From Dendrolimus kikuchii (taxonomy: Eukaryota; Arthropoda; Insecta; Lepidoptera; Lasiocampidae): a stretch of 64,000 bases of DNA. Below the pieces are notes generated by a model, which made no database searches, was not told where the DNA came from, and saw only the letters and a program-made list of their open reading frames with translations. Each line of letters starts with the position of its first letter. The first letter of the stretch is position 1. Below, one piece after another: positions 38,515 through 57,316 of this stretch. The stretch covers positions 17,429,338 to 17,493,337 of the forward strand of contig CM034401.1 in NCBI GenBank assembly GCA_019925095.2. The letters are read 5' to 3'. The position numbers and the translations under genes are program-made.

Positions 38515-41500
38515 AAGATATTCTTACATACATACATACATACATAACTTCACGCCAGTTCCCTTGCGGGGTAGGCACGAACAACAGAGTGCCATTTAGG
38601 CTTATTCTTACACACCTCACTTGCCTCTTTGACATTCATAACTCTTGTCATGCAAGCTCGTCTGTTCTTAAGGGTCCTGACATCACCTTCTGCTAGTACA
38701 CGATCAATTTGATCATGGAAGGTGTGTCGTGGCCTTCCACGACTTCTGCATCCATCCACTTTTGCATTGTATATCTGTTTAGTCATTCTTTCATCATGCA
38801 TTCTTTCCACATGCCCGAACCACCGGAGCATTCCTTTCCTTACCTTCACCCCGACACTCTCTTTCAGACCAACTCTCTTTCTTACTTCGGTATTACGAAC
38901 GCGGTCCGCGAGCGTCACTCCGCAGATTTTGCGCAGTGCTCGCATCTCGACCGCGTTTACTCTACTTTCATGCTCTTTCTTCCATACCTAACTCTCGCTT
39001 CCATACGTGAGCGTAGGTACCAGCACCGCGTTGTGTACGGCGAGCTGGGCCTTCTGGCTGAGATTCTTAGCGCCTAGAAGTTTACCTAACGCTCCATTTA
39101 AACTATTCCCCAAATTCACTCTTCTTTCTATATCGGCGGTATACCTTCCATCCCTGCTAAAAGCACATCCAAGATATACAAACTCATTCACTTGCTCCAG
39201 CATAACATCATCGACCATTATCCTTGCATTCGTTCTGGTTTCTTCTCTTTCAAACACCATAACCTTTGTTTTCTTCGCATTCAAATGTAAGCCTCTCGCC
39301 TGACAGTCATCTTTCATCATTGTGACTAGTGTTTGCAGTTCTGATGGCGATTCGGCTAAAAGCACGGCATCATCCGCATAAAGCAAGGTGCTTACAACTA
39401 GATCACTCATCCGCACCCCAACATCCATCAATCTTATTCTCTGGAGACAATCGTCCAGATATAGGATGAATAGCAAAGCCGACAGCACGCAGCCCTGGCG
39501 GACGCCAATATTGACGTCAAACCAGGGCGACAGGCTGCCTTCCACTCGCACGCATGCCATACAGCCCTCGTAAGTGGACTGCACAGCACGCATCAATTGG
39601 CCATTAATCCCATATCCGGGCAATATGTCCCAGAGGTCCTTCCGCACAACCCTGTCAAATGCTTTCTCTAGATCCACAAAACCGCAGAAAACCTTCCGGC
39701 CCATAGCCAGCTGCTTCTCTACGATATTGCGGAAAGAGAAAACTTGATCCATACATCCCCTTCCATTTCTGAAACCACCTTGTGCATCCCACAGTAATCC
39801 ATCGGATACAACTCTCATTCTCTTTTCAATAATCTTCGCATACACTTTAGATGCTGTGCTGATCAAACTGATGGCCCTGTAGCTGGCGCACTCCATACGT
39901 GACCCCTTTGCCTTTATACAAGGGCACGATGACAGCGCGCCTCCAGTCCTTGGGAACCTTTCCCGTCCTCCAGCACAAGTTGCATAAGGACAGGAAAACG
40001 TCCCGGACGCAGGTTCCACCATATTTGATCATCTCAGCAGACACACTATCGATTCCTACTGCCTTTCCATTTTTCAGACTTCTTATCGACCATTCGATCT
40101 CTTCCAAAGTGATCTCGGATGTTGACTCCTCAGAGTCGGTCACAGACTCAGTCGTGGTGCCAGCATCCGGGATATTATCATACATTTCTCTAAAATATTC
40201 ACTCCATCGCGCTAATACCTCTTTTGGGTTAGCAAGAACGTCCCCTGCTTTAGATTTTATTCTTTCCATTCTGGAAGCTGACGAACAACCCCGAGACTTC
40301 TTAACCTCTCTCCAAAAGAGTTTGGTATGCGCCTCGAAGTTCTGCGTCAGCTTCTCTTCTTCTTTCAATTTTATTCTTTCACGCTTCTCTTTCACTAAAG
40401 CTTTGGTTTCATTCTTGCAGAGGCGATAAATTTCTTTCTTCATCTCTTTCATACTGTCATTCTGTTGCAAGGAAGCAACATAATCCAGCCAGGCTTTTCT
40501 CTTTCTCTCTACGCTGGATTTAATATCCGCGTCCCACCATTCATCACCTTTCGTTGTTATGTGCCTCTTCGCGCATCCACATGCTTCTTTTGCGCTTTCC
40601 ACTATACTTTCTTTCATACTATCCCAGTCATTATCCACATCTAAGTCGGACAAGTCCGCTTTTGCAAGCCTTTCTTCGACTAGGCGCGCATACATACTCC
40701 TTACACTAACATCTTCCAATTTTTCACACTTTATTCTTTCAAGCTCCCCGAAATTGGTACGCACTCGCCAGTGCCTCCACTTTTTGAAAAGGCCCACAAA
40801 CCGGCTTATCACCAGGTAGTGGTCCGTTTCAAGAGTGGGGCCTCTGTAGGCTCTTGTATCCATTATTGTGTTTCGGAGGCGACTATCAATTAAAATCAGA
40901 TCAATCATACTTTTCTGATCATTCATTCTCAATGTATACGTGTGAATATCCTTATGATGGAATAGGGTGTTCGACACAAGCAAGTTTCTTTCCATGCATA
41001 CGTCTATGATTGGCCTACCAGCATCGTTCACTCTCTTGTCACCATAGGGTCCAAGGACAGCCTCAAGGCCGTCTCGTTTGGTCCCCACCCAGCCATTAAG
41101 ATCACCACACATAATTAGTCTTTCGTTCCCTTCAGCCAGATCCAGAATTTCTCTCACAGACTCCCAAAACTTCTCGAGTTCTTGGGGATCCGCTGAGCTT
41201 ACGGGAGCATAAGCTGCGACCAGAAAAACTCGCGTGATCCCCAGTTTTAGGCGGACCCAGAGAAGTCTCGGGTTCACCAGACAATAAGCTTTTACTCCAG
41301 ACACAAAGCGGGATGAGAGTAAGACGCCTACCCCCCCACTCGCACGCTCGTCCAGGTCCACGTCGAACCACAGAGCAAGCATGCCACCGGAGAGGTCATC
41401 GACGTCGCACCCCTTCCGCTTTGTCTCTGTCAGACATAAGGCATCCAGGCTTCTCTCATTCATTATATCAATCATTTCGTCCATCTTATCTTTCATTCCA

Positions 41501-41760
41501 CCTCTCACATTCCACGTGCCTATACGACACTCTGCTCCTCTCGACCCGCCAGGTTTGGCGTGAAGGGTGGCGGCCCCCTTCGCCGCATGCGCGAGAATCC
41601 ACACCGACGGTGGCGCATCGGTGAGCGTCGCCTGCGGGGGACGCCCTATCGTGCACTGCACTCGGGTAAATTCTGGTCAGAATTGTGGCCCTCTGGGCCA
41701 GCGGGGATCTCGACGAGCACGCTTCTGACATGACACCCATAATGACATAAGATATTCTTA
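38515..41760 (-). mobile_element. RTE-like LINE, nearly intact, 12 bp target duplication
   Basis: AAGATATTCTTA lies at both ends (38515-38526 and 41749-41760), so the element is 38527-41748, about 3.2 kb, the usual size of RTE-type LINEs. It ends (3' on minus) with an ATGT-unit tail. It encodes one endonuclease/RT protein with a single frameshift and a single stop. Three short copies with their own target duplications are at 15950-16038, 28023-28261 and 33704-33764. Confidence 0.92.
38550..41661 (-). pseudogene. endonuclease / reverse transcriptase of the RTE-like LINE
   Basis: Non-LTR polyprotein that nicks target DNA and copies its own RNA. N-terminal APE-type endonuclease: GTWNVRGG, CLTETK, GDLNGWVG, DLILID, ETDHYLV (about 41520-40800). 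RT follows: GFRNGRGCMDQ, FVDLEKAFDRV (motif A), RQGCVLSALLF (B), LLYADDAVLLAE (C, YADD), YLGCAFSRDG. C-terminus: MLRWFGHVERM, RGRPRHTFHDQI. Bases 41661-39900 form one frame. A run of four C at 39903-39906 shifts frame by one; the second frame then runs to a TAG at 38988-38990 where family logic expects Trp, and continues open to 38550. An in-frame ATG upstream of 41661 is possible, as 41740-41486 is open in another frame. Confidence 0.88.
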
Positions 41761-43054: not shown

Positions 43055-43437
43055 TCTTGCTCGCGGATTCACTCGCGTTAATGTTATCCCACTGGAACTA
43101 AATCTTTCAGAGATAAAAAGTAGTCTATGTATTATTCCAGACTATAATAGTCTGTCTTTGTACCAATTTTATCCAGAGCCGATCAGCCGGTCTGACGTGA
43201 CATAGTAACATCCCTCCAAACTTTCACATTTATAGTATTATATAGTACTAGCGGTTCCGGCAGACGTTATCCTACCCTGAAAAAATAAACTTCTAGAACC
43301 CGATTCCAGTGCCACTTATCGGATCTAATTGTGAATCTAAACCATTCCTGGACCCACTCAAACGCTATTTTTTTACACCTTGGGTTACATCATTGAAGTT
43401 TTAGTAGGAATCTTTAACGTTTTCTAGAAATAAATAT
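43055..43437 (+). repeat. dispersed repeats Z then Y (left half)
   Basis: 43055-43254 begins 'gcggattcactcgcgttaat', a Z-type opening. 43255-43437 matches family Y ('aacccgattccagtgccact', 'ctaaaccattcctggaccc'). Family Y seems to resume at 44050, on the far side of the hairpin unit. Confidence 0.55.
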
Positions 43438-43560
43438 TAAAAGCCATAATGGCGGTAGTTGACTTTTTTTTGCAAGTACGGCGGTAGCGTTCGCTGGCGG
43501 CACGTGCCCTGTACACGTGCGCGGCATCGTCGCCCCGCCCACCTTCCACTACGCTTAGAG

Positions 43561-43567
43561 TATAAAA
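43561..43567 (+). promoter_or_regulatory. TATA box upstream of the hairpin array
   Basis: TATAAAA about 30 bases before 'gcacgcatttcc'. It sits 49 bases before hairpin unit 1, so all six hairpins would be in the transcript. Confidence 0.5.
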
Positions 43568-43615
43568 ACGGACCGCTCCGTTGTATTGGCACGCATTTCC
43601 AACGAATGCGTCTGC

Positions 43616-43911
43616 GAGTAAGGACCATTGTCTTTCGACAATCAGTACTGCTCTAATACTAGACATGGAACGCTGTCTTTGACGGTTAGTACTGTCTAGG
43701 TAGTAGACATGGAACACCGTCCCTGACGGTCAGTACTGTCTAAATTGCGGTAGGTGCGTGGAACGCTGTATCTAACAGCCAGTACAGCCCTAAAGTGACC
43801 GCCCCCGCTCTCATGACAATAATAGACGTGGAACACTGTCCCAGACAGTCAGTACCGTCTAAATTGCGGTAGGTGCGTGGAACGCTGTATCTAACAGCCA
43901 GTACAGCCCTA
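43616..43911 (+). ncRNA. six-unit covarying hairpin array with a sarcin-ricin-like internal loop
   Basis: Units: 43616-43653, 43660-43698, 43704-43742, 43751-43792, 43823-43861, 43870-43911. Each is outer helix, one or two bases, GGAAC (GGACC in unit 1), inner helix, 3-5 base loop, inner helix, one pyrimidine, AGTAC, outer helix. Outer pairs: GAGTA/TGCTC, TAGACA/TGTCTA (units 2, 3), TAGACG/CGTCTA (5), TAGG(T)GC/GCCCTA (4, 6). Inner pairs: ATTGTC/GACAAT, GCTGTC/GACGGT, ACCGTC/GACGGT, ACTGTC/GACAGT, GCTGT/ACAGC. Helices vary by matched changes while the loop strands stay constant. 72 bp (43741-43812) are repeated exactly at 43860-43931. Function unknown. Confidence 0.6.
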
Positions 43912-43987
43912 AAGTGACCGCCCCCGCTCTCGTCTCTAACTGTAATTGTTTTTGTACTTTATTAATAGTTGTTTGTCTAATTAAATC

Positions 43988-43993
43988 AATAAA
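43988..43993 (+). terminator. AATAAA polyadenylation signal
   Basis: AATAAA about 77 bases after hairpin unit 6, in an AT-rich region; suited to end the putative transcript. Confidence 0.4.
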
Positions 43994-44049
43994 TTTCTTG
44001 TAAAATTAAATAAATTGTTTACGATTATATTTTTTATTATTTTCCACTT

Positions 44050-44210
44050 CTGGTCGCTAAAAATATAACCTATATTAATCTGGGATAATATAGCATTATA
44101 GGTGGTGAAAGACTTTTTGAAATTGGTCCAGTAGTTTTTGAGTTTATTTGTTACAAAAATAAAATAGTAAGAAAATACAAATGCTTCCTCTTTATAATAT
44201 TAATCTAGTA
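44050..44210 (+). repeat. dispersed repeat family Y (right half)
   Basis: 'tatagcattataggtggtga', 'ggtccagtagtttttgagtt' and the closing 'tttataatattaatctagta' are the usual end of these short repeats (compare 8245-8270). It reads as the continuation of 43255-43437 across the hairpin unit. Confidence 0.5.
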
Positions 44211-55914: not shown

Positions 55915-57316
55915 AAACCAGTCAGTTCAGACTCGTGCTCATCTTGCGAGACTTCCTCCTAGGTCGTAGCTTCCGGTGTACCACAGGGCTCGGCCCTGTC
56001 ACCACTACTCTTCACGCTGTACACCAGCGACATCCCAAAAACTCCAGATGTGGAGTTGGCCCTCTTCGCGGATGACACCGCACTCTATACATCAGGTCAC
56101 AACCGACAAATGGCTTGCGTCCGGCTGCAGGCAGCTGTCACAGAGCTAGGCGAATGGTTTCGCAAATGGAGGATAGAGGTAAACCCGGAGAAAAGCGCAG
56201 CAATGTTCTTTTCCCCGGGTACGCTTCGCTCCCCCAAACGCGTTAGCCTTCGCCTAAAAACCATTTCGCTCTACGACCAACAAATCCCCTGGGCAAAGTA
56301 CACCAAATATCTTGGTGTCACCCTAGATCGAAACTTGCGCTTCAACGAGCATATCACTATAGTCCGAAATAGAGCGCGATTTGTGATGGGTCGTTTAGCA
56401 CCCATGATAGACAAACGAAGCAAAATGTCCCTCAGACACAAGCTTACTCTGTATAAAACATGCATCCGCCCGATCATGACATACGCGAGTGTGGTATTCG
56501 GCCATGCCAAGCCTGCCCTATTAGATAAACTGCAAATCGTGCAGAATAAATTCATGCGCAGAGCCGTCGGTGCTCCCCTCTATATGCGTAACGTCGACCT
56601 CCACCGCGATCTGGAGCTTCCCTCCATCAAAAACTACATTACGTCGCTCTCGCGTAAGTATTTCGATCTCGCGCCGCATCATCGAAATCCGCTCGTCGTG
56701 TCCGCGTCCGATTATAAGCCTCGGCGAAAGGCTCTCGTACGACGACCGCGTAACGTCCTCACGGACAGGGTCGACGTTATCACAAAACGGCTGGCCCGGA
56801 TCAGCCCGCCCGCGGTTAGGACGGCAGGCTGGCAGGCACGGACAGACAGACACAGACGGCGGCGTCTCAGGCGCTGCCAATCAAGATCTCTCCACGTCCC
56901 TGCGAGGGACGTTAGACGGCGTTAGAGTTAGGCGTGTTGCTGGGAAGTTTCTTTCGCCGTTTCTTCTCTCCCAGCCATAACACGTTACGAAACGGCAGTA
57001 AGATAGCGTAGGCCGCCGCGAACCGCCGATCCCGGCCCGCCGGGATCCTTCCCCTCGGGCTTTATATTACCCGTCGCCCGTTCTCAATTAGTGCTTTGTG
57101 TCGCCCTATGGTGGGCATCATTAAATTCATCCCCCTCTCATGGCAACAGTCCAGCCGAGGTAAAACTCCTTAGGGAGCTCCCTCGAGCAAGTTGCCCCCC
57201 CGGGCTCGAGCGCCTTCGCTTCGCGAAGGCACACGCCCCAAAAACCCCGGTAAAGTTGTAAGGTCTTCGGACCAACAACATAAAGTCAAGTCCAATAAAA
57301 AAAAAACCAGTCAGTT
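55915..57316 (+). mobile_element. Jockey-like LINE, 5'-truncated, 13 bp target duplication
   Basis: AAACCAGTCAGTT lies at 55915-55927 and 57304-57316. The insert 55928-57303 contains the second half of ORF2, a GC-rich 3' UTR and an A-run. The UTR-only copy at 891-1251 belongs to the same family. Confidence 0.9.
55940..56925 (+). pseudogene. Jockey-like LINE reverse transcriptase, C-terminal half
   Basis: Reads SGVPQGSALSPLLFTLYTSD (RT motif B), LALFADDTALYTSG (motif C, FADD), KWRIEVNPEKSAAMFF (D), YLGVTLDRNLRF (E), then the post-RT region LYKTCIRPIMTYASVVFGHA, LQIVQNKFMRRAVGAP, DLELPSIKNYI, and an arginine-rich end. Still open from 55952 to the stop at 56923-56925, so the insertion is recent. 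Motif A and the endonuclease were lost by 5' truncation; a TAG at about 55952 precedes the remaining frame. Clade by motif order: Jockey. Confidence 0.85.

Follow-up and report, generated by a model that had tools for sequence, protein, structure and literature searches.

Tandem hairpins with a sarcin-ricin-like internal loop in a Ty3/gypsy long terminal repeat of Dendrolimus kikuchii

The signals by which LTR retrotransposons have their RNA packaged and handled are poorly defined. In the accessible part of a review of Ty3/gypsy retrotransposons, the packaging signals of Ty1 are placed within the 5' 580 nt and those of Ty3 in UTR or POL sequences, with recognition by Gag implied and its sites undefined (PMC4974528). 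The same part contains no hairpin array comparable to the one described here. In retroviral LTRs with long R regions, residual conservation has been linked to stem-loops, and the available text of that study mentions neither a tandem array nor a sarcin-ricin module (PMC3601003). A likeness between terminal repeats and ribosomal RNA has been reported for the Cassandra and Ajax elements, whose terminal repeat recalls 5S rRNA and which, according to the portion of the report at hand, are short, non-coding and equipped with a 5S-derived Pol III promoter (PMC10886601). The tHH pair of the sarcin-ricin module has AA and AC alternatives, AC being found in nearly all bacterial helix 95 motifs and AA in most archaeal and eukaryal ones. 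The same module forms loop E of eukaryotic 5S rRNA, the Xenopus laevis example being tabulated from the structure of a zinc-finger-RNA complex (PMC8450098, as far as the accessible sections go).

The locus considered here lies in a 64,000-nucleotide stretch of the Dendrolimus kikuchii genome (the window). On its forward strand, at 43615-43910, six hairpins of 39-40 nt each share the pattern GGA(A/C)C...(Y)AGTAC. We found no description of such a hairpin array in the titles and abstract openings of a literature set that lacks most subscription papers. The array would be an instance of the sarcin-ricin module serving, in several copies, outside rRNA, and, as a compact, repeated and covarying module at what are probably both ends of a retrotransposon RNA, it provides a specific site at which packaging and handling can be tested.

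That the array is located in the LTR of a Ty3/gypsy element is close to certain. The features of the LTR in the window are as follows.

43434..43437, no strand: left copy of the 4-bp target site duplication ATAT, identical to 44063-44066
43438..44062, + strand: Ty3/gypsy solo LTR of 625 bp, TAAAAGCC...GCTAAAA, with ends common to copies
43561..43568, + strand: TATA box TATAAAAA, from the sequence
43585..43588, + strand: inferred transcription start and start of R, from five LINE poly(A) junctions at ATTGGCACGC
43591..43611, + strand: 5'-terminal hairpin ACGCATT/AATGCGT, 7 bp, ahead of the array, read from the sequence, without covariation
43988..43993, + strand: polyadenylation signal AATAAA, from the sequence
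44009..44014, + strand: second polyadenylation signal AATAAA, from the sequence
44063..44066, no strand: right copy of the target site duplication ATAT, 4 bp

Comparison of positions 43590-43960 with the 705-Mb genome that contains them gave 42 matches at 91-100% identity, equivalent to 40 loci since two matches overlap others; with 40 of 116 first-look candidates scored, the LTR loci number at least 40. Thirteen same-strand pairs were found, 12 of them spaced 5-8 kb apart and one 12.5 kb, and the 98.1-100% identity within pairs (gaps left uncounted) indicates that these insertions are recent. In such copies the direct LTRs flank an internal region encoding a Ty3-type reverse transcriptase followed by RNase H (RVT_1, 9.1e-27; RT_RNaseH_2, 4e-19). 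The best PDB sequences for the reverse transcriptase are 4ol8 and 7q5b, the latter named Ty3, and Ty3_capsid (PF19259) gave a weak match of 3.5e-05 and 23.8 bits that falls below the cut-off of 29.1. Read by eye, an early frame in L004 is rich in Arg and Ser, a CCHC knuckle (C-x2-C-x4-H-x4-C) is present in L003, and a frame at L002:73-720 resembles the later part of integrase, for which Pfam returned no match. The start of the internal region in L004 (2059-2700) has a repeat of about 69 bp, counted by eye, adjoining the Arg/Ser-rich coding frame, a stretch that is unusual for Gag.

Elsewhere in the genome, 3' LTRs are preceded by the purine tract ggagaggccg; after 5' LTRs comes the primer site (tcagaagtggga, tcagaagtgggatt). 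Neither the purine tract nor the primer site is found in the flanks of the window copy, which is therefore a solo LTR. We take tcagaagtgggatt to resemble the complement of the 3' part of tRNA-Leu, a primer site presumably unlike that of the Ty3/gypsy comparison system. The likeness to yeast Ty3 consists of the reverse transcriptase relation, the LTRs, the weak capsid match and the presence of cis-acting signals in terminal RNA, as the accessible text on Ty3/gypsy elements describes them (PMC4974528), whereas the LTR ends differ in not being TG...CA. A host long non-coding RNA or the leader of a host gene was considered and rejected, the array lying inside an LTR with exact boundaries. The sequence-only reading, which had proposed a selected RNA acting perhaps as a leader, is supported as to the selected RNA and the leader, and missed the Ty3/gypsy LTR carrier.

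Where the array falls in the RNA is suggested by a set of fusions. Five loci (L016, L032, L040, L051 and L054) have a LINE poly(A) end fused to the LTR at ATTGGCACGC, and in L036 a similar end is joined inside unit 1. In the simplest reading, these fusions reflect end-to-end template jumping when the 5' end of the LTR RNA was reached, and five fusions at one exact base place that end near 43585. The five loci carry three array types (six-unit, variant and three-unit), and hence probably arose in more than one event, the alternative being one ancestral fusion that they share and that later recombined. The LINE 3' end in the chimeras is that of a LINE in the window, of which L051 has only the last bases. 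This window fragment, with RVT_1, lies at 56050-57300 and has the same 3' end, AAAGTCAAGTCCAATAAA, as the chimeras; a second tail of the AAAGTCAAGTCCAATAAA type is found at window 1215, and a non-LTR retrotransposon with endonuclease and reverse transcriptase domains in two overlapping frames occupies 38988-41661 on the minus strand.

The TATA box is kept in the copies viewed except L010 and L018, and lies 24 bp from the presumed start, a distance a little short for a standard promoter. With the start taken from the fusion junctions and the end from the polyadenylation signals, the array would lie in R, in the sense orientation and near both RNA ends. It begins about 30 nt from the presumed 5' end, in keeping with the earlier suggestion of a leader, and its position in R would place it near the 3' end as well. 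The 5'-terminal hairpin ahead of it has a stem unchanged in 10 copies viewed, whereas L050 has lost one of its pairs. The TTTTT at 43949-43953 prompted consideration of a Pol III small RNA gene, which was set aside as Pol II agrees better with the TATA box, the AATAAA signals and the LTR context. Two CACGTG E-box palindromes occur in U3 upstream of the TATA box (window 43501-43519). The motif TTCTAGAA, which we take to be heat-shock-element-like, occurs six times in the window against 1.7 expected, including at 43291 and 43422 just outside the LTR; heat-shock control through it was rejected, both of these sites being outside the LTR.

The hairpins themselves were delimited with model R1, a covariance model for which nine distinct units, those of the window included, supplied the alignment.

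43615..43654, + strand: unit 1 (GGACC/AGTAC), model R1, 50.0 bits
43660..43698, + strand: unit 2, model R1, 55.8 bits
43704..43742, + strand: unit 3, model R1, 59.9 bits
43753..43791, + strand: unit 4, model R1, 55.2 bits
Around unit 4, + strand: possible outer stem GCGGT/ACCGC, by eye, without covariation
43823..43861, + strand: unit 5, duplicated from unit 3 and carrying two compensated pairs, model R1
43872..43910, + strand: unit 6, duplicate of unit 4, model R1

At an E-value of 1 the model finds exactly these six in the window, at 50-60 bits and all on the plus strand, and the four occurrences of GGAAC...CAGTAC in the window, against 0.24 expected, all fall within the array. The layout agrees with what had been read from the letters: GGAAC is present in five of the six units, GGACC in unit 1, and a pyrimidine plus AGTAC in all six. 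In each unit the loop strands enclose an inner helix and are in turn enclosed by an outer helix, the latter being weaker in units 4 and 6. An Rfam search and a tRNA scan led nowhere, RF00001 having no match in the LTR.

We consider it very probable that the array is a selected RNA structure. A 109-bp block is duplicated at a spacing of 119 bp with five differences, all within the unit 3/5 pair, and four of the five make up two compensated Watson-Crick pairs (A-T replaced by G-C, and C-G by T-A), so that outer and inner helix letters change on both strands as the sequence-only reading had noticed. We simulated five random differences, taking 80% of them to be transitions. At least two compensations were obtained in 135 of 2,000,000 trials when the changes could fall anywhere in the block, and in 4,163 of 2,000,000 when they were confined to a 39-bp unit. 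In an alignment of the nine distinct units, 92.0% of cells pair, versus 78.0% in shuffles (none of 500 as high), the covariation score was reached by none of 500 shuffles, and two-sided changes affect 9 of 13 pairs (2 of 500 shuffles had as many); further pair types were no more numerous than in shuffles, 384 of 500 reaching the count. After a first alignment, units 1 and 4 had their ends re-cut so as to align the outer helices, a step that favours structure; sliding the helix registers lowers pairing to 27-48%. Covariation beyond column composition is supported by shuffling, as distinct from R-scape, for paralogous units of one element family in one genome. RNAalifold, with no structure supplied, returned the same two helices with 11 pairs, 9 of them with compensation. 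Folded as a whole, the region has an energy just moderately below expectation (z -1.45, with a similar -1.59 for the reverse strand), the non-canonical loop being absent from the energy model.

Further paired changes separate the element lineages. In a variant lineage (L037-L040, and also L046, L047, L049, L086 and the minus strand of L085, with L050 and L052 belonging to the same elements as L037 and L039), TAGACA/TGTCTA of unit 2 has become TAGATA/TATCTA, and ATTGTC/GACAAT of unit 1 has become ATTGG/CCAAT. One outer pair is seen in three states: the main unit 3 has A-U, L046 has G-U, and L047 shares G-C with unit 5. Individual copies behave differently. Among the 40 LTR copies we counted 28 changes, 11 in unpaired positions and 17 in stems, each counted once (carried by one to six copies, at most three changes away from five reference units, and with variant-lineage units left out); 12 of the stem changes break a pair, five retain a G-U pair, and compensation is absent from all 17. 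The paired state of lineage-level changes set against this absence of compensation at copy level indicates that compensation belongs to replicating lineages rather than being a mutational habit of any palindrome, in a test that does not separate out reverse-transcription errors. The loop is nearly constant while the stems covary, and the claim of a selected RNA built from repeated bulged-G type modules is supported.

These data bear directly on three explanations that dispense with a protein reading the RNA loop. Arm-to-arm copying of quasi-palindromes could mimic compensation without selection; template switching can mutate inverted repeats, and reverse transcription often switches templates. 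Such copying would be expected to make the two loop strands complementary, whereas GGA(A/C)C and AGTAC are kept between lineages, the G-U state at one pair is a wobble, and none of the 17 copy-level stem changes is compensated, many of which may postdate insertion; we regard this artefact as very improbable indeed. Hardly more probable is that the repeats serve at the DNA level as LTR sites for a transcription or insulator factor. Drosophila gypsy, with its repeated factor-binding sites, is a model for this idea, palindromy would suit a dimeric factor, GTAC and CAGTACTG are palindromic, and the two CACGTG boxes of U3 point the same way. A DNA-reading factor would have no need of helix letters that vary with pairing kept, however, the constant parts are two non-complementary loop strands, and the array is downstream of the presumed start. 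A role of the palindromic AGTACT/CAGTACTG strands in dimerisation or kissing of genomic RNAs is improbable to a somewhat lesser degree. CAGTACTG is found in units 1 and 3 and AGTACT in unit 2, and palindromes at the 5' end of Ty3 RNA have been proposed for a dimer model in the available part of one study (PMC11381356); units 4-6 instead have CAGTACAG or CAGTACCG, leaving GTAC as the only common palindrome, and the conserved GGAAC partner would be unneeded.

Eleven alignment columns are invariant, nine of them in the two loop strands and their closing pair and two forming one inner pair. Between lineage types the loop strands are constant apart from the A/C difference of unit 1 and, in the variant unit 2, one additional A ahead of AGTAC; changes do occur in individual copies, with GGTAC in L037 and L050. 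Strands of AGUA and GAA or GAC are flanked by helices, and AGUA with GAA beside a pyrimidine mismatch is, judged by its letters, a sarcin-ricin or bulged-G module, for which non-canonical pairing would be predicted. Helix 95 of large rRNA has what we take to be the same pair of strands, AGUA opposite GAA/GAC, next to a mismatch of pyrimidines. In large rRNA the strands of the sarcin-ricin loop are joined at the end opposite to that in the array units: helix 95 is capped on the other side, whereas the array consists of six repeats in a retrotransposon RNA. The variable A/C site of the array fits the tHH pair, for which AA and AC are known alternatives, as tabulated in the accessible sections on helix 95 (PMC8450098).

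The opposite joining had been noted from the letters, and it is real with respect to large rRNA; it is not odd, because 5S loop E shares the strand order. In the 5S gene of the same genome, loop E has GAA on the 5' strand and CAGUAC on the 3' strand, ordered as in the array and with the hairpin on the same side, while the closing helices of loop E (RF00001) are unrelated to those of the array. Beyond the motif the likeness to 5S is weak (11 nt, with 23 of 1000 shuffles as good), and model R1 gave no match at an E-value of 0.1 in two 5S loci (L042 and L043). The suggested mimicry of rRNA gains no support from these results, and derivation of the array from 5S sequence was rejected on the same grounds together with the missing RF00001 match. 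Since the similarity outside the motif is unconvincing, convergence is the better reading of the shared loop. The element also differs from Cassandra and Ajax in having reverse transcriptase coding and a TATA box, the loop motif being all they have in common (PMC10886601, available portion).

The number of units varies among copies, as judged by model R1 matches. Arrays of three units occur in L051, L054 and L093 (the other side of the L054 element), of four in L078, L079, L080 (twice), L082, L085 on the plus strand, L089 and L091, of six in the window, and of eight in L034 and L035, which account for 16 of the 244 matches over the 40 LTR loci. Among flank pieces, 7 of 20 contain matches (L046, L047, L049, L050, L051, L052 and L054; 35 matches at an E-value of 1), those in L049 being on the strand opposite to the reverse transcriptase that led there, and a second set has matches in 11 of 17 pieces (51 at 0.1). 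L048, whose reverse transcriptase is 94% like the query, has none on one side and six units on the other (L086). No array was found on either side of a copy with 63% reverse transcriptase identity (L053, L087), nor in 11 pieces of 5' flank from sister families with 41-49% identity (L055-L065). Four of the 11 (L056, L057, L061 and L062) are the ones in which the primer-site motif shows that the LTR was covered, with no array in 720 bases upstream. The array is thus not general Ty3 machinery and, within this genome, looks like an acquisition of this element lineage. Two motif-pattern searches of viral contigs gave 0 and 2 matches, and one of genome contigs gave one match in each of 10 contigs, where about 15 were estimated by chance; model R1 found nothing at 0.01 in these 12 loci. 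Unit number may change by slipped strand transfer or unequal recombination, and a repeated R would explain growth and loss between 3, 4, 6 and 8 units. These natural arrays form a dose series.

A constant loop between varying helices, repeated in tandem, looks like a protein-binding array, and we give about an even chance to the view that the R-region array is a multivalent protein-docking platform on Ty3/gypsy RNA. Transcription would start near 43585 and polyadenylation follow 43988-44014, such that each full-length RNA would carry the array close to its 5' and 3' ends. Each unit would fold with outer and inner helices flanking an internal loop of the sarcin-ricin/loop E type, and a protein that reads the bulged-G loop may bind several units together. 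This protein would most likely be the element's own Gag, or else a host RNA-binding protein. Once bound, it could mark the RNA for packaging or trafficking, and an array at both ends may help to hold them together for the first strand transfer.

Gag-guided packaging or trafficking is the role we favour, Gag being a candidate because the Arg/Ser-rich early frame and the CCHC knuckle are visible in copies, and we put it forward tentatively as the main one. The finding that the Ty1 R region is dispensable for localization to retrosomes, in the accessible part of the review, counts against such a role of R (PMC4974528). The main rival is recruitment of host proteins for leader translation, nuclear export, 3'-end stability or escape from silencing, which we judge rather less probable than a role for Gag. 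The loop strands and their order equal those of loop E in the 5S gene of the same genome, lying in R, the array would be part of the leader and also close to the poly(A) site, and the X. laevis loop E module is tabulated from a zinc-finger-RNA complex in the available sections of the source (PMC8450098). On this view TFIIIA, uL18/RPL5 or another protein that binds 5S could be drawn to the loop E-like module. The explanation is weakened by the lack of convincing 5S kinship beyond the motif and of any match of the unit model in two 5S loci, and by the fact that TFIIIA also contacts other parts of 5S. More speculative, and in our estimate unlikely, is a combined scheme in which a 5S loop E-like array, amplified stepwise from three to eight units and retained at the two RNA ends, captures either a host protein of the 5S/ribosome pathway or Gag; the captured protein would then serve nuclear export, packaging or the joining of RNA ends. 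Under that scheme the array would represent a new class of cis-acting LTR-element signal built on a non-canonical three-dimensional module.

Two further observations concern the copies that carry the LTR. At C1:1895738-1901468, LTRs about 93% like that of the window (L038, L039 and L052) enclose a reverse transcriptase only 62% like the query and with four stops, which suggests a mosaic or decayed copy. Many of the 40 LTR loci lie on three short contigs (C30-C32, 5-9 Mb) that could be pieces of a repeat-rich W chromosome.
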